A stretch of DNA of 64,000 nt from Natrialba magadii ATCC 43099 (GTDB lineage: Archaea; Halobacteriota; Halobacteria; Halobacteriales; Natrialbaceae): NCBI RefSeq assembly GCF_000025625.1, contig NC_013922.1, positions 1,550,001-1,614,000 of the forward strand. Reading direction: 5' to 3'. Each line of letters starts with the position of its first letter. The stretch's first letter is position 1. Shown here one piece after another: positions 2,018-58,933 of this stretch. Made by a program: the position numbers and the translations under genes. The notes below the pieces were generated by a model that was not told the origin of the DNA, made no database searches, and saw only the letters and a program-made list of their open reading frames with translations.

Positions 2018-3505
2018 ATGGTGCGCAACCAGTACGACGTGATCGTTGTCGGGGGCGGGATCGCGGGCTGTTTCGCGGCGGCGACGGCAGCCGCCGAGGG
2101 GATCGACGTGGTCCAGTTAGAGCGCAAACCCCGCGAGCAGGGTGGGTTCATCGCCTGTGGCGATGCGATCAAGAGCCCTCGCGATCCACAGAATTACCCA
2201 GGGCCGATCGATATGGACGCGATCGCCGACGATGAAGCCGTCCTCGTCGACAACAACATCGACCAGATCGAGTACTGGGACGAAGAACTCGGCGTACGGA
2301 AGGTCTTACCCTACAAGGACAGCAGCAACGTCGTCGACCGCTACGAGTTCGGCCAGCGCTTGCTCGAACAGGCAGCCGACTGCGGCGTCGAGCAACACTA
2401 CGACACGGTGGTCAACGAAGTGACCCAGAACGGACAGGTAACCGGCGTCAAAGCGGTCCGGGACGGTGAGCCTGTCACCTACGAGTGTGACGTGCTGATC
2501 GACGCTGCAGGCGCACAGTCGATCCTGCAGGACATGGTCAGCTTCGAGGACCTGGATACCCCCGGCGAGCCGACATTCGAGGTGCCCCACTACACCCACT
2601 TCGGATCGGCCTACCGCGAAATCATCGAGACCGAACAGCCGGTCGAATACCACAACGCCATCGTCGGCAAACCCCTAGAGGAGATGGGCTACATCTGGTA
2701 CTTCCCGCGGACGCCGACCCAGATCAACGTCGGGCTGGGCTTCCAGATGAACAAGGAACCGATCCCGCTCGCTGACCGCCTGCGCCGCGACATCGAGCAC
2801 CGACACGAGTACCAGGGCGCAACCGTCGCAGAGCGATTCGGCAACACGAACAAGCTCGGCGCGGCGATTGCCCTCCGCCGACCGCTCGACTCGATGGTCG
2901 CCCCCGGCTACCTGGCCACAGGCGGTGCAGCGGGGACGACCCACCCGATCACGGGCAAGGGCATCCGCGGTGCGGCCTACTCCGGCTACTCCGCCGGCCG
3001 TGCTGCCACCCAGGCCATCGAGGACGGCGACACCTCGGAGGCCGGACTCTGGGAACACAACCGCTGGCTCTACCGCGAGCACGGCGAAGCCGCAAAACTC
3101 GCCTCGTGGGACGCGTACAACGTCGCCGCGAGCACCCTCGACGTGAACACGCTGCGGGCCGTCGCCGCACTCCTCCCCGAGGCCGAAATCCGAGAGATCG
3201 TCGGTACCTCCACGGAGATAGACAGCCTCAAAAGCAAACTTCTCGTCGGTACCGGCGTCCTCAAGAACTTCGTCTCCGAGTATCGCAAGGACTCCTTCGA
3301 GACCCTCGGCATGAGCAAACGCGACCTACTCGAGTCCATTCGCAACGTCAGGAAGACGCGAAATCACGTCGCCAGCTACCAACAGCAGTACGAGGCCTAT
3401 CCGGCGGACCCGTCGACGTTCGACACGTGGCTCGCAGAGCGCGATCGGATCGATCAGACGTTCTACGACGATCTCGGGATTCCGCCGAGCGAGCAGAAGT
3501 ACTGA
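2018..3505 (+). CDS. Geranylgeranyl reductase family FAD-dependent oxidoreductase
   Basis: The 495-residue protein opens with a Rossmann FAD-binding motif (GGGIAGCF, about residues 11-18). It carries the family sugar-pocket signature YIWYFP near residues 225-230, and HPITGKGIRGAAYSGYSAG around residue 310. The family hydrogenates isoprenoid double bonds; archaeal members saturate the geranylgeranyl chains of membrane lipids or menaquinone side chains. The C-terminal 130 residues are longer than in minimal members. Haloarchaea carry several paralogs, so the exact substrate cannot be fixed from sequence alone. It follows hisS after a 140-base gap and is probably transcribed alone. Confidence 0.85.
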   Translation: MVRNQYDVIVVGGGIAGCFAAATAAAEGIDVVQLERKPREQGGFIACGDAIKSPRDPQNYPGPIDMDAIADDEAVLVDNNIDQIEYWDEELGVRKVLPYKDSSNVVDRYEFGQRLLEQAADCGVEQHYDTVVNEVTQNGQVTGVKAVRDGEPVTYECDVLIDAAGAQSILQDMVSFEDLDTPGEPTFEVPHYTHFGSAYREIIETEQPVEYHNAIVGKPLEEMGYIWYFPRTPTQINVGLGFQMNKEPIPLADRLRRDIEHRHEYQGATVAERFGNTNKLGAAIALRRPLDSMVAPGYLATGGAAGTTHPITGKGIRGAAYSGYSAGRAATQAIEDGDTSEAGLWEHNRWLYREHGEAAKLASWDAYNVAASTLDVNTLRAVAALLPEAEIREIVGTSTEIDSLKSKLLVGTGVLKNFVSEYRKDSFETLGMSKRDLLESIRNVRKTRNHVASYQQQYEAYPADPSTFDTWLAERDRIDQTFYDDLGIPPSEQKY

Positions 3506-3582
3506 GACGGTCGGTTAAACACCCATCACCAGCACCCAGTCGGAGACGGATTACTGAAGAGAGTATTTTGCATAATCAGACG

Positions 3583-5454
3583 TCATGTGAGATCGATTCG
3601 TTCGAACCGCCAACAGGCGATCACGATCGGCACGGTCCCCCATAGGACCAGTATAGGTACCGAAAGCCACTCCGAGAGGTACCACGGGACGCCGCCGTCG
3701 AACACATCTGAAAGGAGTGTCACGGTTGGCATGGGGTCGTCAGTGGTTAGTTTCTCAAGCACGCTGCTGCCGGCGTCGTTGGAATTGGGCAGTCCTGCAA
3801 TCCAGTTTGTCGCCGCCTGGTACGAATACTGCGGAATAAGCCGTTCCGTAAAGAAATACGGTCCTGGACTCGGGTTCTCGGTGATCGTCGACACCAGTGC
3901 CGCGTAGAGATCGTCCCAGAAAAACGGCAGGACCATAAACACCGATAACGCCAGCGTGATCGCCCGACGGCCGGTCTTGGCGATGGCAGAGATAGCGGTA
4001 GCGATAGATACCCACATGAGGAGATACACTCCAGAGGCCACCAGAACCGCGATCGTCCGAATCACCGGTGGTGGGCCGTACAGCGCTGTTGAGACGAGGA
4101 TGACCGGGAGTAAAGCCAGCGTGGTAACCACCACGAGCGTGACCGCCTCACCAAAGAGCTTGCTGAGAACGTACTCCCATCGATCCCTGGGATATTTAAG
4201 CAATAGTCGAGTCCGGCCGCTCGCTCGGTCGCCGGTGACCAGGGCGTAGCCGGCGAAGACGGCAGCAATTCCGCCGAGGTACGCTACCACCGATTGGAGA
4301 ATCATCAGTGCGTATTCCGGCGGCGGATTCGCTGGAATGCCGGACACAGGCCCGATGAGGAGCTCGAGGCTGAATAACACGACCACCAGACCGTACGCCC
4401 AGTAGGCCGGCCTGCGAATTTTCACTAGCCCTTGGCGGATCACAAACAAAAGAAGGGGCGTTGCACGACCGGAAAGACTGCTGCCCGCAAGCAAGCGTCG
4501 TGTCAGGGTTCGTCCGTGGTTGGATCGATCGGTCCGACCGAGGAGTCGACGAACGCCTGTGGACGGGCCGGGATCAAGGTCTGACCTTGAGAACCGCCAG
4601 TAGGCGATCCCCACGGGTAGGACGCCCCACAGGACCAACACCAGCAGCGAGACCCACTCTGAGAGGTACCACGGAATCGACCCTTCGATTACCTCTGGAA
4701 CGATATGCATCGAACTGAGGAGAACGATAGCGTCCGACTCAAAGTAGCGTATTACGGATCCGGCAGTGTTATGCGCGTTTGGCAGCCCCATTGCCCAGTT
4801 CGTCACGGTGTAGTATGCGTCGTGAGGAGACAATCGATGGGCAAAGAAGTAGAGCAACGGTGATTCCGTAACAGGAACTAGTCGGAAGAGCCCGTTCACC
4901 AAACTTGACCAGGAAATCGCTACTAATACGGCTGGAACGACGACGGTGATCGCTTGACGTCCGGTCCGGACGACCATGGAAACGGCGGTCGCAAAAGAAA
5001 ACCAGACGAGAAGGTACCCGGCCGAGAGCACGAGAAATACCGCGACCGGAAACAGGGGCGGCTGACCATAGAGAGCCGTCGAGATGGTTACGCCAGCGAC
5101 AATGGCAAGGGTAGTGAACAACACGAGTGCGAAAGCTTCGCCGAGAAATCTCCTAACGAGATACTCCCGGCGAGTGTACGGCAACTTCAGTAACAACCGA
5201 ATCCGTCCACTAGTCCGGTCGCCGACCACCGTCGCATACCCGGCGAGCACAGCAGCAAAAGCGCCAATAACCGCGACAAACCACTGGAACGTCGCGAGCA
5301 CGACAAACTCGCCACGCTCAAACTCGCCCGGGGGGTACAATCGATGTGGACTGATTGGGCCACCAGCAGTTGCAGTTATTCCGAGCACGAAGAGGAAGAG
5401 ACAATACACCCAGTAACGACTGCTTTTCACCTCTATGTATGGAGTTTTACACAT
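3583..5454 (-). CDS. ABC-2 type permease, two permease units fused in tandem
   Basis: The 623-residue protein has about twelve hydrophobic segments and consists of two homologous halves. Half one (about 1-300) and half two (about 325-623) share the same landmarks in order: a cytoplasmic GDR-SGR-RLLLK segment, an E-Y-(L/V)-x5-GEA segment, an STALYG loop, a TGR(Q/R)AIT segment, and a (G/D)G(S/I)PWYLSEW motif before the last helix. Such permeases pair with a separate ATPase to export peptides, antibiotics or lipids. The likely ATPase is the divergent gene at 6674-7591, with a Tat-exported protein between them. Single-unit ABC-2 permeases are usually 250-300 residues, so this looks like an intragenic duplication giving both halves of the channel in one chain. 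The ATG at 5454 follows an A+T-rich promoter-like stretch. Confidence 0.82.
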   Translation of the reverse strand: MCKTPYIEVKSSRYWVYCLFLFVLGITATAGGPISPHRLYPPGEFERGEFVVLATFQWFVAVIGAFAAVLAGYATVVGDRTSGRIRLLLKLPYTRREYLVRRFLGEAFALVLFTTLAIVAGVTISTALYGQPPLFPVAVFLVLSAGYLLVWFSFATAVSMVVRTGRQAITVVVPAVLVAISWSSLVNGLFRLVPVTESPLLYFFAHRLSPHDAYYTVTNWAMGLPNAHNTAGSVIRYFESDAIVLLSSMHIVPEVIEGSIPWYLSEWVSLLVLVLWGVLPVGIAYWRFSRSDLDPGPSTGVRRLLGRTDRSNHGRTLTRRLLAGSSLSGRATPLLLFVIRQGLVKIRRPAYWAYGLVVVLFSLELLIGPVSGIPANPPPEYALMILQSVVAYLGGIAAVFAGYALVTGDRASGRTRLLLKYPRDRWEYVLSKLFGEAVTLVVVTTLALLPVILVSTALYGPPPVIRTIAVLVASGVYLLMWVSIATAISAIAKTGRRAITLALSVFMVLPFFWDDLYAALVSTITENPSPGPYFFTERLIPQYSYQAATNWIAGLPNSNDAGSSVLEKLTTDDPMPTVTLLSDVFDGGVPWYLSEWLSVPILVLWGTVPIVIACWRFERIDLT

Positions 5455-52345: not shown

Positions 52346-53329
52346 CTAAATGACGCGGTTGACGACCGACTCATCCGCCGCGAGTCGCTCGACATTCTCT
52401 CGAACCAGTCCGCCAACATCACGGAAGTAGTCAACCGTAAACGCGGCACAGTGAGGCGTGATGATCACTTCGTCCATCTCCCACAGCGGAGACTCCGCTG
52501 GCAGCGGCTCCGTCTCGAACACGTCGAGGCCCGCGCCTTCGATCGAGTCCGACTCGAGTGCATCCACCAATGCAGACTCATCCACGATGGAGCCGCGACC
52601 GACGTTGACGAAGTAGGCGTCGTCGCGCATGGCGTCGAAGAACTCGGCGTCGGCGAGGTGGTGTGTGTCGTCGGTGAGCGGGAGCGTGACGATTACGAAG
52701 TCGGCGTCTGCGACGGCGGCGTGGCGGTCTTCGGTTGGAAACACCGCTTCGAAGCCGGGGACTGGGTCGCCGGAGCGGCGGACGCCGGTGACGTGCACGC
52801 CGAGCGAGCCGAGGGTATCGGCGACGCCGCTGCCGAGCGTGCCAGTGCCGAGAACGCAGGCGGTCTTGCCGGGCAGGGTGAACGCCTCGTCCCATTCTGG
52901 ACGCTCCCAGCGGCGGTCCTGCTGGGCGGCGATGGCGGTGTGGAGTCGCCGAGAGAACGCGAGAAGGTAGCCCGCGACGGTTTCGCCGACTGTGCGGTCG
53001 TGAATCCCCGTGCTGTTGGTGAGGATCACGTCGTTCGCTTCGAACTCGTCGAAGGGGAAGCGGTCAACGCCAGCCTGGATGGAGTGGACCCACTCGAGTT
53101 CGAGGAACGAATCGTCGTACTTTCGAGTGACGACGGCGTCACACGTGTCGGTGCCGTCGGTGTCCACGACTTCTACGGGGACGGGAAGATCGGCAAGTTC
53201 GTCGGCAAGTTCGGTCGGCGGGAAGACGCCACCGACGGAGTCGTGAATGCCGAGGAGCGCGATTTCGCGGTCGGTTCTGGATTCGGCGTCCACCTCGCCG
53301 TCATCCGTCTCGTCTGAACTGGCTGGCAT
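52346..53329 (-). CDS. D-2-hydroxyacid dehydrogenase
   Basis: The 327-residue NAD(P)-linked enzyme interconverts 2-keto acids and D-2-hydroxyacids. The Rossmann site is VLGTGTLGSGVADTLGSLGV near 145-165; the catalytic set is Arg in FVNVGRGSIVDE, Glu in DVFETEPLP and His in ITPHCAAFT. This matches the characterised Haloferax D2-HDH. An acidic 20-residue N-terminal extension precedes the domain. The ATG at 53329 is chosen; the upstream in-frame extension is atypical. Confidence 0.92.
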   Translation of the reverse strand: MPASSDETDDGEVDAESRTDREIALLGIHDSVGGVFPPTELADELADLPVPVEVVDTDGTDTCDAVVTRKYDDSFLELEWVHSIQAGVDRFPFDEFEANDVILTNSTGIHDRTVGETVAGYLLAFSRRLHTAIAAQQDRRWERPEWDEAFTLPGKTACVLGTGTLGSGVADTLGSLGVHVTGVRRSGDPVPGFEAVFPTEDRHAAVADADFVIVTLPLTDDTHHLADAEFFDAMRDDAYFVNVGRGSIVDESALVDALESDSIEGAGLDVFETEPLPAESPLWEMDEVIITPHCAAFTVDYFRDVGGLVRENVERLAADESVVNRVI

Positions 53330-53538
53330 ACCGCCCGGTACGGACGACCCGACGTTCAAGCTTTGCCAACATGTGTCATTGCTGTCGCGACACCGACTGC
53401 TGTCACGAAACGCACCGCTGTTCACGTACGGAAACGGCGGCTCGGGAAAAGTCCTCGTCACAAGGGGCTCGGAGGGGGTAACTGCTCGTCACGGCCGCCG
53501 GCGGTTCCTACTCGACGAATGGGTTTCCCTCTGTCGCT

Positions 53539-54942
53539 TCAGCGGTCGCGCCAGGACTCGAGTGCGCGCATGTTCTCGGCGGTCTCCTCGATCTCGGCGG
53601 GCGCGAGCAGTCCTCGCTCTGTCGCAAACTCGGTGACACAGTCGGCAGGTGTGATGTCGAACGTCGGGTTCAGCACATCGATCGCCGCGTCGCCGTCGTA
53701 AACCGCGTCGCGCGCCGCGGACTCGAGTGCAACCTCCTCTCGTGTCGAAATTTTGTCCGTGGCGGCGACGACGGTGACGGGAACATCCTCGTGGGCAGCA
53801 GCGGCGGCGAGCGCTCGCGTTCCGGTCTTGTTCACGACAGCGCCGTCGTGGCGAATCGTGTCTGCGCCGACGAGCACCCGGTCGATGGATTCAGTTGCGA
53901 GCACGTGTGCGGCTGCGGCGTCAGTGTGGAGTGTCACGGGACAGTCGACACCACCAGCGGCCAGTTCCTCTGCGACGGCGACCCCCTCCAGCGCGGGCCG
54001 GGATTCGGCGACGAACACCCGCGACGGTGCGCCGGCGCGCAGCGCGTCGACGACGGTTCCAGAGCGCGAGAGCGTGAGCACAGCGCCGTCGATCACGTCG
54101 GCTGCAGTTGCCGCAGCGTCGTCGTCCGCAGCAGTCGCGCGGTCGATTCCCGCGAGGGTGGACTCGAGAACAGCCGCCGCGTCGGGAACGGACACATCGT
54201 CAGCGGCTGCCTCGCTGGCCTCCGCCATCGCCCGGTTCACCCGGTTCCGGAGCACCGCCATCGACGGCCGCGCCTCGAGGAGTCGCTCAGCGAGTGCGGT
54301 GAGTTCGGCCCACTCCTCCTCGGCGTCGGCGGCGGCGGCGTCGGTGTCGGTGTCGGCGTGCTGATCCACATCGTCGCCGTCGTCGGAATCCGCTCGCTCG
54401 GCAACCACCAGTCCCGCCCGGTCCCGAAGCACTTCGAGCGCACGAATCGAGAGCGCGGCCGCCCCGTGCTCGTCGTCCGCCGTAATCGAGCGCACCGTTG
54501 GCGCAACGCGCTCGTAGGCCGTCCAGAGCGCCGGCACTGTCTGGCGATCCGGATCGATGCAGATGGTCGTTGGTGGTGTCCACTCGAGTGCGTCGTGCTC
54601 CTCACTCAGGTCGACATCGCGGCTGTCGACGTCGAACAGGTACGGATGGACGGTCCACTCGCGGTCGAGCTCGGGGTCGGTGACGGAGACGGGGCGGCCC
54701 GACCGGATGAGGTCGATTTCGGCGTCCGAGAGGCCGGTTTCTTCGCGGATTTCGGTGCGGACCTGTGTGTTGGGATTACCTTCGGCGAAGCCGGAGACGC
54801 CACCCCATTGCCCGGTGTAGGTGCCGACGGCGTCGCTGCGGCGCAGGAGAAGGATCTCGCCGCGGTGGCGGAGGAAAGCGGTGACAACATCGGCGTGGGT
54901 GGGTTCCGATCCGGCCCCATCGCCGTCCGTGGAATCGGTCAT
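53539..54942 (-). CDS. Fusion of Nudix domain and eIF2B-like sugar-phosphate isomerase
   Basis: The 467-residue protein joins two enzymes. Residues about 17-150 form a Nudix domain (ILLLRRSDAVGTYTGQWGGV; box GFAEGNPNTQVRTEIREETG). The box keeps the metal-binding glutamates (E-x2-E-E) but, without gaps, lacks the usual Arg and the first Glu. Residues about 225-467 match the archaeal eIF2B-alpha/MtnA-like isomerases: SRPALEGVAVAEELAAGGVD, VLVGADTIRHDGAVVNKTGT and VTVVAATDKIST. Archaeal relatives isomerise ribose-1,5-bisphosphate in nucleotide salvage. An acidic linker (DSDDGDDVDQHADTDTD) joins the halves. The gene is divergent from hyuA. Confidence 0.85.
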   Translation of the reverse strand: MTDSTDGDGAGSEPTHADVVTAFLRHRGEILLLRRSDAVGTYTGQWGGVSGFAEGNPNTQVRTEIREETGLSDAEIDLIRSGRPVSVTDPELDREWTVHPYLFDVDSRDVDLSEEHDALEWTPPTTICIDPDRQTVPALWTAYERVAPTVRSITADDEHGAAALSIRALEVLRDRAGLVVAERADSDDGDDVDQHADTDTDAAAADAEEEWAELTALAERLLEARPSMAVLRNRVNRAMAEASEAAADDVSVPDAAAVLESTLAGIDRATAADDDAAATAADVIDGAVLTLSRSGTVVDALRAGAPSRVFVAESRPALEGVAVAEELAAGGVDCPVTLHTDAAAAHVLATESIDRVLVGADTIRHDGAVVNKTGTRALAAAAAHEDVPVTVVAATDKISTREEVALESAARDAVYDGDAAIDVLNPTFDITPADCVTEFATERGLLAPAEIEETAENMRALESWRDR

Positions 54943-55091
54943 ACGTGGCCCCAGGCGGGCCGCGACGGAATTGCTTTCGGGAGCAGATAGACCATCGTTT
55001 CAGACAGAGCGTCTCAGCGTATCACGAACCAGGGAGACATCGACAGGCACCCGGTCGTGAACTATACCTATCTCGAGTCCGACCAGCGACC

Positions 55092-57311
55092 ATGACACGG
55101 CGTGGGACGACGGAACACGAGTCGACAACGTGCACCCGCTCTCGATCCCGACCGCGATCCCGTACCCGTACCCGTACTCGCACCCGAATCGGCGTCGACG
55201 TCGGCGGCACCTTCACCGACATCGCGCTCTCCGTCGACGACGACCTCGTCACCGCGAAAGTACCGACCACGGCCCCCCAGCACGTCGGCGTGCTCGAGGG
55301 CATCGAAAAAGCCTGTGCCGACGCAGGTATCGACCCCAACGAAATCGACGAGTTCAGCCACGCGATGACCGTCTCGGTCAACGCCCTCCTCGAACGCGAC
55401 GGCGCAACGACCGCGCTCGTCACCACTGCCGGCTTTCGTGACGTACTCGAGATCGGTCGCCAGAATCGCCGCTCGCTCTACGACCTCGACGCCGAGAAGC
55501 CGACGCCGCTCGTCCCCCGCGAACGCCGGTTCGAAGTCGACGAGCGGACGACGGCCGAGGGTGTCGAACAGCCGGTCGATCCCGACGAGGTTCGGGAGCT
55601 CGCAGCGCAACTCCGTGAGGCGGACGTGGAGGCCATCGCGGTCTCGCTCCTGCACGCCTATGCCGATCCGTCGAACGAGCGCCAGGTTACCGAAATCCTC
55701 CGCGAAGAGCTCTCGGTTCCGGTATCGGCTTCTCACGAGGTGCTGGCCGAGTTCCGCGAGTTCGAACGCACGTCGACGACTGCCGTCGACGCCTACGTCC
55801 GCCCCGTGATCGACCGCTACATCGGTCGACTCGTCGAGCAGGCGGCCGACGCGGGGATTCCGAAACCGCGGATCATGCAGGCGAACGGCGGCACCGCTAC
55901 GCCGGAGACGGTCCGCAAGCACGCCGTCACGACGACGCTCTCCGGTCCGGCCGCGGGGGTTGTCGGCGCTGGGGCAACCGTTGGCGGCTCCGACTCCGGC
56001 GGCGACGACAGCGGCGACATCGGCGACAATACCGATAACGACGACAACACGGATAACGGCGACACCGCAGACACCGACGAACCTGTAGGAACAGACCGCG
56101 AGACACTCGAGGGACTCGTCACCTTCGACATGGGCGGCACCTCGAGCGACGTGAGCCTCGTCCGAGACGGCCGCGCCGAGCGGACGACCGACGCCGAAAT
56201 CGACGGGCTCCCGATCCGGACGCCGATGGTCGACGTCAACACCGTCGGGGCCGGCGGCGGCTCGATCGCCTGGGTCGACGCCGGCGGCGCGCTCCGCGTC
56301 GGCCCGGAATCGGCGGGCGCACAGCCCGGTCCCGCCTGCTACGGCCGCGGCGGCACGCGACCGACCGTGACCGACGCCACCGTCGTCCTCGGCTACATCG
56401 GCCCCGAGACCGCGCTCGGCGGCGAGATGACCCTCGACGTCGAGGCGGCCCACGACGCCCTGGCGAGCCTTGCCGAGGAGGCCGGCCTGGACAGCGCACT
56501 CGAGGCCGCCCGCGGCGTCTACCGTGTGGCGAACGCAACGATGACCCGAGCGATCCGCAGCGTCACGGTCGAGCGCGGCCACGACCCCCGCGAGTTCGCG
56601 CTCGTCGCCTTCGGCGGCGCAGGGCCGATGCACGCCACGGCGCTGGCCGACGCGCTGTCAGTCGAGTGCGTACTCGTCCCCCGTCCGGGCGGCGTCCTCT
56701 CAGCGTTCGGCCTCCTCGCCGCCGACGAGAGCCACGACGCCGTTCAGACCGTTGGTGTTGTACTCGAGTCCGCCTCGCCGGCAACGATCAGCGAGGTGTA
56801 CGACGAGCTGGTCGAAGACGTGCTCGCGGACGTCTCCAATCCGGACGCGGCCCAACTCGAGCGAGCGGCGGACTGTCGGTACGCCGGACAGAGTTTCGAG
56901 TTGACTGTTCCCGTGGACGCGGCGGGGGCGTTCGACGCCGAGGCGGTCGCCGACCGCTTCCACGAGGCCCACGAGCGAACCTACGGCTACGCGCTGGACG
57001 AGGCGATCGAAGTCGTGAATCTGCGGACGACGGCGACCGTTCCCGGCGCGGAACCGACCGTTCGCCACGAAGGCGGCGGTAGCGGTGATGCAATCGTCGG
57101 CACGCGAACCGCGCACTTCCCCGGCGTGGACGAGGAGCAGGGCCAGGCGACCATCTACGAGCGTGACCGACTCGCACCCGGCGCGACGATCGACGGCCCG
57201 GCGGTGCTCGAGCAGGCAGAGAGTACGACGGTGGTTCCGCCGGGGTGGATAGGTGAAATTCTGCCGGACGGAACGCTTGCGATGACGCGTACGGAGGTGA
57301 GTGAGGAATGA
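55092..57311 (+). CDS. hyuA: Hydantoinase/oxoprolinase subunit A
   Basis: The 739-residue ATP-binding subunit opens its domain with IGVDVGGTFTDIALSVDDDL near residue 32. Other family blocks are HAMTVSVNALLERDGA, GLVTFDMGGTSSDVSLV and EFALVAFGGAGPMHATALAD. With HyuB it hydrolyses cyclic amides such as hydantoins or 5-oxoproline using ATP. The first 31 residues are basic and repetitive (SRSRPRSRTRTRTRTR), from a hexanucleotide repeat, which is odd in this acidic proteome. An acidic Gly/Asp/Asn insertion sits near 297-335 between two ATPase blocks. The stop overlaps the hyuB start (ATGA). Confidence 0.93.
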   Translation: MTRRGTTEHESTTCTRSRSRPRSRTRTRTRTRIGVDVGGTFTDIALSVDDDLVTAKVPTTAPQHVGVLEGIEKACADAGIDPNEIDEFSHAMTVSVNALLERDGATTALVTTAGFRDVLEIGRQNRRSLYDLDAEKPTPLVPRERRFEVDERTTAEGVEQPVDPDEVRELAAQLREADVEAIAVSLLHAYADPSNERQVTEILREELSVPVSASHEVLAEFREFERTSTTAVDAYVRPVIDRYIGRLVEQAADAGIPKPRIMQANGGTATPETVRKHAVTTTLSGPAAGVVGAGATVGGSDSGGDDSGDIGDNTDNDDNTDNGDTADTDEPVGTDRETLEGLVTFDMGGTSSDVSLVRDGRAERTTDAEIDGLPIRTPMVDVNTVGAGGGSIAWVDAGGALRVGPESAGAQPGPACYGRGGTRPTVTDATVVLGYIGPETALGGEMTLDVEAAHDALASLAEEAGLDSALEAARGVYRVANATMTRAIRSVTVERGHDPREFALVAFGGAGPMHATALADALSVECVLVPRPGGVLSAFGLLAADESHDAVQTVGVVLESASPATISEVYDELVEDVLADVSNPDAAQLERAADCRYAGQSFELTVPVDAAGAFDAEAVADRFHEAHERTYGYALDEAIEVVNLRTTATVPGAEPTVRHEGGGSGDAIVGTRTAHFPGVDEEQGQATIYERDRLAPGATIDGPAVLEQAESTTVVPPGWIGEILPDGTLAMTRTEVSEE

Positions 57312-58933
57312 CCGATCACGATTCGACAAACCACGACTCAGCAGCCAACAGCTCGACTGACGAATCCCCCACGACCACCGACCAGCCCATCGACCCCGTC
57401 ACCCTCGAAGTCCTGCGCAACCAGCTCGCCGGCATCGCCGAGGAAATGGGCCAAACGCTGATCCGCGGGGCCTACTCCCCCAACATCAAGGAACGCCGCG
57501 ACTGCTCGACCGCCCTCTTCGACGCCGAGGGTCGAATGATCGCCCAGGCCGAACACATCCCCGTCCACCTCGGCGCGATGCCCGCCGCTGTGGAGGCCGT
57601 ACTCGAGTTCGACCCAGAACCCGGCGACGTCTTCGTGCTCAACGACCCGTTCGAGGGCGGGACGCACCTCCCGGACGTGACGATGGTCTCCACGCTCGCC
57701 GTCGAGGGCGAGATCGTCGGCTACGCGGTCTCGCGCGCCCACCACGCCGACGTTGGTGGGATGACGCCCGGCAGCATGCCCGCAGGCGCGGAGGAAATCT
57801 ACCAGGAGGGGCTTCGAATACCGCCGACGCGACTGGTGGCCGGCGGCGAGGTCCGCGAGGAGGTGCAGTCGCTGCTGCTGGCGAACGTGCGCAACGCCCG
57901 CGAGCGCCGAGCCGACCTACGAGCCCAGCGCGCGGCGAACGAGCGAGCCGCCGAGCGGTTGCGAGAGCTGTTCGACGAGCACGGCCGCGAGACGGTGGTG
58001 TCGGGCTTCGACGCCGTCATCGACTACTCGCGCGAGCGGATCGAGAACGAACTCACGGCGCTGCCCGACGGCACCTACGAGGCGACGGATTACCTGGAGG
58101 GCGACGGCGTGACGGACGACGATATCGAGATCAGCGTCGCCGTGACCATCGACGGCGCGTCGGTCGACGTCGACTTTTCGGGCACCGCAGCGCAGCTTGC
58201 GGGCAACCTCAACGCGCCCCGCGCGGTCGCGACGAGTGCAGTCTACTTCGTCGTGCGCTGTCTCACGGATCCCGAGATTCCACCAAATCACGGCTGTTAC
58301 GAGCCCGTGAGCGTGCACGCACCGAACGGAACGCTGCTCAACCCCGAGCCGCCGGCCGCGGTCGTCGGCGGCAACGTCGAGACCAGCCAGCGCGTGACCG
58401 ACGTGGTCTTCACCGCGTTCGCCGAGGCCGCACCCGACCGCGTCCCGGCGCAGGGCCAGGGTACGATGAACAACCTGACCATCGGCGCGCGGGACGGCTC
58501 GTTTACCTACTACGAGACCATCGCGGGCGGGTTCGGCGCTCGCGCCGACCGTGACGGCATGGACGGCGTGCAGGTCGGGATGACCAACACGCTCAACACG
58601 CCCGTCGAGTCACTCGAGACGGAGTACCCGCTCCGGGTCGAGCGCTACGCGCTGCGCGAGGGGAGCGGCGGCCGCGGCCGGTTCCGTGGCGGCGAGGGAC
58701 TCGAGCGCACCGTGACGGTCGAGGCGGACGCGACGGTCTCGCTACTGACCGAGCGCCGTCGCCACGCACCAGCGGGCGTCGCTGGCGGCGAAGACGGTGC
58801 GACGGGTGAGAACCTGCTCGACGGCGAGCCAGTGCCCGCGAAGACGACGGTCGACGTCGACGCGGGGACGACCGTCACCGTGCGGACGCCCGGTGGTGGC
58901 GGACACGGTGAGCCAGACGAACGAGCGGAGTAA
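57308..58933 (+). CDS. hyuB: Hydantoinase/oxoprolinase subunit B
   Basis: The 541-residue subunit shows [57 protein letters not shown] and [21 protein letters not shown] conserved C-terminal [20 protein letters not shown] and the ending [12 protein letters not shown] are also typical of HyuB. It probably forms a heteromer with HyuA, to which it is translationally coupled by a 4-base overlap. No hydantoin racemase or carbamoylase is adjacent, so 5-oxoproline recycling is as likely as hydantoin use. Confidence 0.93.

Follow-up and report, generated by a model that had tools for sequence, protein, structure and literature searches.

The window, that is, the whole stretch of 64,000 nucleotides of Natrialba magadii DNA that was analysed, carries at positions 53539-54942 an open reading frame with an ATG start that encodes a fusion protein of 467 residues (all coordinates of the fusion given here are on the minus strand). 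A reading of this DNA from its letters alone (the sequence-only reading) had proposed a Nudix domain fused to an eIF2B-like one, to be checked by structure prediction, and this proposal was confirmed. Pfam placed a NUDIX domain (PF00293, 35.7 bits, E 1e-8, cut-off 21.1) at residues 17-127 (54562-54894) and an IF-2B, or R15P-isomerase-like, domain (PF01008, 164.1 bits, E 5.3e-48, cut-off 22.4) at residues 159-448 (53599-54468), and the AlphaFold model made from 63 input sequences was confident (mean pLDDT 94.3, pTM 0.92). Both predicted folds were matched by solved structures in VIA-align. The IF-2B half matched best the R15P isomerases (R15Pi) 3vm6 and 5yfs (Z 33.4, rmsd 2.7, 293-294 residues), then 1vb5 (Z 30.2) and, by structural comparison, the eIF2B-alpha structures 7kma (Z 27.2) and 3ecs (Z 27.1). 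Profile and fold alike assign the other half to the Nudix superfamily, with 2fkb as a match over 132 residues (Z 17.0, rmsd 2.0) and 3grn, 3n77, 2o5f and 4dyw as further ones (Z 16.1-17.0 for the five). All 50 matches listed by Foldseek were of the IF-2B family, in a search made with the whole fusion model, where a large model can mask single-domain matches. Among named relatives, three Natrialba records come closest, with 86-88% identity, and a chance fusion is excluded because full-length orthologues occur across Halobacteria.

The downstream neighbour is a D-2-hydroxyacid dehydrogenase gene (52346-53461, minus strand; NF041369, 468.9 bits, cut-off 400). In 46 of the 69 named haloarchaeal loci, such a gene follows the fusion on the same strand within three genes downstream, and CofE or Mer lay divergently upstream in 38 of the 69; these neighbour families were identified from one representative each, and the gene caller was so crude that 6 of the original 75 loci had no called fusion gene and were dropped. 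In the window, two hydantoinase genes separate the fusion from CofE. They form a hydantoinase/oxoprolinase A and B pair (54945-58933); in many relatives the CofE-Mer genes lie nearer to the fusion than they do here.

Catalytic and pocket residues of the IF-2B half

According to the accessible part of the R15Pi report (PMC5789824), Cys135 and Asp204 are catalytic, the 1-phosphate is bound by Arg22, Arg65, Gln166 and Lys215, the 5-phosphate by Ser137 and Lys240, and the sugar by Asp204, Asn214 and Lys215. We compared these positions in 149 non-identical full-length fusions, a set that includes the window protein, is rich in Natrialbaceae, and was filtered for matches that start no later than residue 30 and reach residue 440, which leaves out Nudix-less forms and those whose Nudix half is heavily decayed. 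The position of the catalytic Cys (133 or 135 in R15Pi) is Ser in all 149. In the window protein it is Ser292 of a TLSRSGT motif (residues 290-296; 54055-54075), whose Ser294 occupies the position of the 5-phosphate ligand Ser137. Two 1-phosphate ligands are also replaced, Gln166 by Glu in 149 of 149 (Glu319; 53986-53988) and Arg22 by His in 139 (His159). On the other hand, the equivalents of Ser137, Asp204, Asn214 and Lys215 are each kept in every row, that of Lys240 in 148 and that of Arg65 in 145. The kept residues of the window protein are Asp361 (53860-53862), the counterpart of the catalytic Asp204 or Asp202, the sugar-ligand pair Asn371-Lys372 (53827-53832), and Lys397 at a 5-phosphate position (53752-53754). 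The residue register was the same in the HMMER alignment and in the joint alignment. As a control, haloarchaeal R15Pi loci were aligned, taking the best 30 from 40 matched genomes, and each of the 30 kept all ten R15Pi residues; the alignment has 31 rows, the protein of our own genome being present twice.

The fusion scored 104.6 bits with TIGR00511 for R15Pi (NCBIfam cut-off 314.1), 83.2 with TIGR00512 for methylthioribose-1-phosphate isomerase (cut-off 279) and 73.5 with NF006210 for IF-2B subunit alpha (cut-off 339), and it has what characterizes the regulatory subunits of eIF2B and aIF2B, an IF-2B fold without the catalytic Cys. As judged from the aligned residues, this family has changed at the catalytic Cys and in part of the 1-phosphate site but not at the sugar and 5-phosphate site. 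Dismantling of the 1-phosphate site is incomplete, because Arg65 is mostly kept and Lys215, which contacts both the sugar and the 1-phosphate, is always kept.

What such changes do can be gathered from published work available to us in part. The C135S mutant of the Pyrococcus R15Pi had no activity and still bound the substrate, whereas C135A lost the binding of R15P (PMC5789824), so that the site is evidently sensitive. Eukaryotic eIF2B-alpha is likewise described as having neither the catalytic Cys nor the 1-phosphate ligands (PMC5789824), its pocket is reported to be occupied by sugar phosphates, and binding of AMP and GMP to fungal eIF2B-alpha is cited in the same account (PMC8187479).

The genome holds two more IF-2B genes, a Cys-bearing R15Pi (THCHST, L001) and an aIF2B-delta-like gene (THDYSS, L002). 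The latter paralogue (L002, 1462-2313), probably of the HVO_2706 type, has Asp at the site of the catalytic Cys and is probably a second pseudo-isomerase. Another IF-2B protein, from genome G011 (L261), has both the catalytic Cys and the equivalent of Gln166, but Gln at the Arg22 site, and sits on a long branch. Among 89 genomes, incomplete ones included, the fusion family was found in 64 (E below 1e-25, a count that includes the Nudix-less G022 and G045), R15Pi in 40 (E 1e-50) and both in 30 (Fisher p 0.64). Because of this lack of association, the family is not tied to the pentose bisphosphate pathway, and a link to it was rejected, R15Pi being missing from 34 of the 64 genomes. The isomerase of the haloarchaeal pathway is reported to be the other paralogue, Htur_0571 (PMC9700705, seen in part).

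Variation and loss of the Nudix half

The Nudix box of the fusion (residues 51-71; 54730-54792) reads G51-FAEGNPNTQVRT-E64-IR-E67-E68-T-G70-L71. The sequence-only reading was right that it has E-x2-E-E without the usual Arg: Glu64, Glu67 and Glu68 are present, and Thr63 stands in the Arg position. Alignment gaps indicate that the box loop is 2 residues shorter than the canonical one, and the first Glu of GX5E is gone for this reason, so that the full box GX5EX7REUXEEXGU is absent and the three helix Glu are retained. Some orthologues (e.g. L016 and L048) retain the longer loop and the canonical box. The sequence-only reading had overlooked both the shortened loop and the Ser at position 292 of the isomerase half.

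In the 149 full-length fusions, the box Arg is missing in 111 and present in 38. All three Glu of the triad EEE are retained in 127 of them, 113 of 134 from haloarchaea and 14 of 15 from bacteria, and the triad is incomplete in 22, where incomplete means that any of the three positions is not Glu and mild changes are counted; in an earlier non-redundant set of 63 rows, obtained from 79 loci by a filter of similar kind, it was kept in 44. The variants run from one mild change, such as Asp for one Glu, to complete loss of the box. Trp121, a marker of the Nudix fold, is nevertheless kept in 148 of 149, implying that the fold outlasts the triad. The state of the triad was mapped onto a tree built from the IF-2B half, with 86 rows of which 24 had an altered or absent triad. 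At least 13 changes between intact and altered or absent were needed, and the well-supported branches by themselves forced at least 7 for the altered state; this tree comes from a quick search with SH-aLRT support only, and was rooted on the group containing the aIF2B-delta-like paralogue of our own genome.

The Nudix half can also be lost altogether. In three species of one haloarchaeal genus (L316, L317 and L320), the IF-2B gene has no Nudix half, and no Nudix match was found within 8 kb around it. The pocket pattern is intact in two of these proteins in the joint alignment, and the third keeps the TLSRSGT and GAD-NK motifs. A further protein (L319) has a shortened Nudix half with no recognisable box. 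Pairwise identity over 1953 pairs averages 55% in the IF-2B half and 48% in the Nudix half, which is the less alike of the two in 1219 pairs. Searched by itself, the Nudix half resembles solved structures only weakly in sequence (best E 0.0032), and its substrate class is unreadable from sequence for that reason. In N. magadii it probably hydrolyses a nucleoside-diphosphate-linked compound, an activity that we infer; this half may act in ligand sensing.

Split genes and bacterial members

A survey across archaea had been suggested along with the fusion; besides full-length fusions across Halobacteria, the searches recovered Nudix-less forms, a split gene pair and bacterial members. The split pair occurs in a genome of the same phylum as the window organism, of another family and outside its class (G434, L285), where a Nudix frame (4010-4420, minus strand) overlaps an IF-2B frame (3126-4028, minus strand) by 19 bases in another reading frame. 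The same overlapping pair was found at a contig end in G443 (L274/L280), of the same genus as G434, and the Nudix gene was present in 2 of 5 genomes examined of that class. In the split IF-2B protein, too, Ser takes the place of the Cys. At the sites of Gln166 and Lys215 it has Tyr and Gly in the joint alignment, and because of these its ligand may differ. In the tree it forms a long branch whose sister position is unsure.

In bacteria, full-length fusions were found in two groups, the class around a Salinivenus-labelled metagenome-assembled genome (MAG), with 9 of 146 genomes, and the order around a Gammaproteobacteria-labelled MAG, with 6 of 109 (loci L143, L149, L154, L160, L161 and L215-L225; in L218 the fusion lies inside a longer called frame). 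Three of them are on contigs of 3.55, 3.59 and 4.32 Mb, and the neighbours in three scanned MAG contigs include GGDEF-EAL, Fe-alcohol dehydrogenase, catalase and PRPP synthase genes; contigs of this size with such neighbours argue against contamination. The 13 bacterial rows of the tree form one clade (SH-aLRT 99) within a 58-row set with haloarchaea (96), and a single transfer out of the haloarchaea explains the branching most simply. PRPP synthase is encoded by the next gene directly downstream of the fusion, on the same strand, in 7 of the 9 genomes from the Salinivenus-labelled class; a profile identified this gene in L161 and L220, and clustering did so in the rest. None of 82 matched plasmid records and neither of two matched phage records had one place covering 80% of the fusion query, and the places listed (20 plasmid, 2 phage) were all in the IF-2B half.

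A proposed pseudo-isomerase joined to a Nudix hydrolase

The explanation that we favour, tentatively, is that the fusion is a pseudo-isomerase that binds ribose-5-phosphate or a nucleoside monophosphate and is coupled to a Nudix hydrolase. The analysis shows the fold, as predicted by the model, the residue pattern with its conservation, and the split and Nudix-less forms, and from these we infer the ligand, the Nudix activity, the coupling and what would be switched. The IF-2B half has lost the catalytic Cys and two 1-phosphate ligands and retains a pocket for a sugar and its 5-phosphate. The residue pattern and the precedents of C135S and eIF2B-alpha are the reasons for expecting there a ligand of the ribose-5-phosphate type without a 1-phosphate, which would be either ribose-5-phosphate in free form or a nucleoside 5'-monophosphate whose base points outward, as has been proposed for eukaryotic eIF2B-alpha. 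The Nudix half, with its three metal-binding Glu in this species, probably yields such products by hydrolysing a nucleoside-diphosphate-linked compound, and the protein would then be a metabolite-responsive switch in which the pocket reports on or gates the Nudix reaction. In members with a decayed Nudix box, the other half would persist as a binding protein.

Further observations also favour this pseudo-isomerase reading: the pocket is nearly invariant while the Nudix triad is repeatedly changed or the whole half is missing, the overlapping split pair links the two halves, and the bacterial fusion lies upstream of the gene for PRPP synthase, an enzyme of ribose-5-phosphate and its main user. 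The last of these is weakened, because the adjacency may stem from one vertically inherited insertion, and the haloarchaeal neighbours CofE, Mer and D-2-hydroxyacid dehydrogenase give no pointer to ribose-5-phosphate. The incompletely dismantled 1-phosphate site, the loss of R15P binding in C135A, the Tyr and Gly of the split protein and the mildness of some triad changes also count against the reading, and the absence of a phenotype in a published deletion, described below, counts against a switch. A wider version of it, in which a prokaryotic eIF2B-alpha-like sensor was first encoded beside the Nudix gene and then fused to it, with Nudix products as its ligands, passed once to bacteria and came to lie in one class beside PRPP synthase, we regard as rather unlikely.

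That the protein is a Nudix hydrolase whose IF-2B half is a mere oligomerisation scaffold seems unlikely to us. It would agree with the EEE triad of most fusions, and IF-2B relatives are reported to assemble as hexamers and dimers (PMC5789824, PMC8187479, both available in part), but a scaffold does not need invariant ligand residues while the Nudix triad changes repeatedly, nor does it account for the three species that lost the Nudix half and retained the IF-2B half. Another reading, in our judgement decidedly unlikely, makes the IF-2B half a different enzyme that uses Ser292, Asp361 and the Lys residues on a 5-phosphate sugar. The near invariance of TLSRSGT and VGAD-NK is equally expected of a catalytic and of a binding site, but we know of no enzyme of the IF-2B family that works without the Cys, and the inactive C135S enzyme (PMC5789824, in the part available) speaks against the use of Ser. 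An improbable alternative is a pseudo-enzyme in both halves, a sensor with two pockets whose Nudix domain serves solely to bind ADP-ribose or a compound like it. Sensing Nudix domains do exist (NrtR, in descriptions available in part), the Arg is missing in most fusions, and the retention of Trp121 despite incomplete triads implies that the fold can be kept without the triad, but the triad is complete in 127 of 149 fusions and in all but one of the bacterial ones, which suggests metal-dependent catalysis there.

It is quite improbable that the protein is an archaeal aIF2B subunit in translation initiation, since the fusion is also found in bacteria, which to our knowledge have no aIF2. The domain family and the old annotation suggest this function, and the accessible part of PMC8576121 names the Haloferax volcanii protein HVO_1934 as aIF2Bsu, reports its co-isolation with an RNA polymerase subunit used as bait, and places it in a tree beside HVO_2706, the other putative aIF2B subunit. 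However, the same source gives only one or two interactions with aIFs and describes the putative subunits as forming no complex, its pull-downs speaking against a ternary one, and in the available part of PMC3828320 the HVO_1934 deletion showed no growth phenotype in 12 conditions and the double deletion with HVO_2706 was, in the text, indistinguishable from the wild type, although the legend of figure 6 mentions differing conditions. An initiation factor was rejected on these deletions and the bacterial members.

The sequence-only reading had suggested that the Nudix product could be taken onward by an active isomerase in the same chain. Part of this stands, since Nudix products could matter to the other half, possibly by being sensed, and the onward isomerisation is not supported, the catalytic Cys being lost; moreover, cleavage of ADP-ribose gives ribose-5-phosphate, which is not the substrate of R15Pi. 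Although both domains are present and well modelled and Asp361 and most pocket residues are kept, such a bifunctional enzyme is highly improbable, and channelling was rejected, given Ser in every fusion against Cys in the 30 R15Pi loci, the inactivity of C135S (PMC5789824, in part), the changed 1-phosphate ligands, the TIGR00511 score far below its cut-off, and a separate Cys-bearing R15Pi in the genome with no association between the two families.

If the wider version of the pseudo-isomerase reading is true, the fusion would be a prokaryotic counterpart of metabolite sensing by eIF2B-alpha that arose from a dead R15P isomerase. Published accounts of how the eIF2B regulatory core arose invoke such a step, in which isomerase activity was lost and the sugar-phosphate pocket retained (PMC5789824, PMC8187479, as far as available); here such a loss appears in archaea and bacteria, in a domain joined to a Nudix half that might produce the ligand. 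Metabolite sensing by an IF-2B domain would be directly testable, as a member of the family is found in the tractable Haloferax, for which deletion strains have been described (PMC3828320, in part), and the reading of the fusion as an isomerase or an initiation factor would be corrected.

The fusion itself is already known as an annotation. As far as our searches show, the replacement of three residues that marks a pseudo-enzyme, a Nudix half that decays or disappears beside an unchanging pocket, the paired split genes and the bacterial clade are new; the published accounts, which were available in part and lay outside preprints and most subscription papers, were found to say nothing of the lost Cys, of split genes or of members in bacteria. 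HVO_1934, listed as 'NUDIX family hydrolase/eIF-2B domain protein' and aIF2Bsu (PMC8576121, available in part), has the same domain annotation and was taken on its annotation as the orthologue, and differs in standing in print as a putative initiation factor. Eukaryotic eIF2B-alpha resembles the fusion in its IF-2B fold, the absence of the catalytic Cys and the retained 5-phosphate pocket, whereas Glu198 of the human protein (PMC8187479) is Asp in the fusion family, the gamma and epsilon partners are described as not found in archaea (PMC8576121, both in the parts available), and only the fusion carries a Nudix domain. R15P isomerase shares the fold (Z 33.4) and the sugar and 5-phosphate ligands, and in the fusion Cys, Arg22 and Gln166 are replaced and a Nudix domain is added. 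The aIF2B-alpha-like 1vb5 of Pyrococcus horikoshii has the same fold in 275-276 residues without a Nudix domain. Finally, NrtR, in descriptions available in part, and TRPM2-type proteins, in which a sensing Nudix domain lies beside a channel domain, are similar in joining a Nudix domain that senses to another domain, but the partner there is a DNA-binding or channel domain, whereas in the fusion it is an IF-2B domain.
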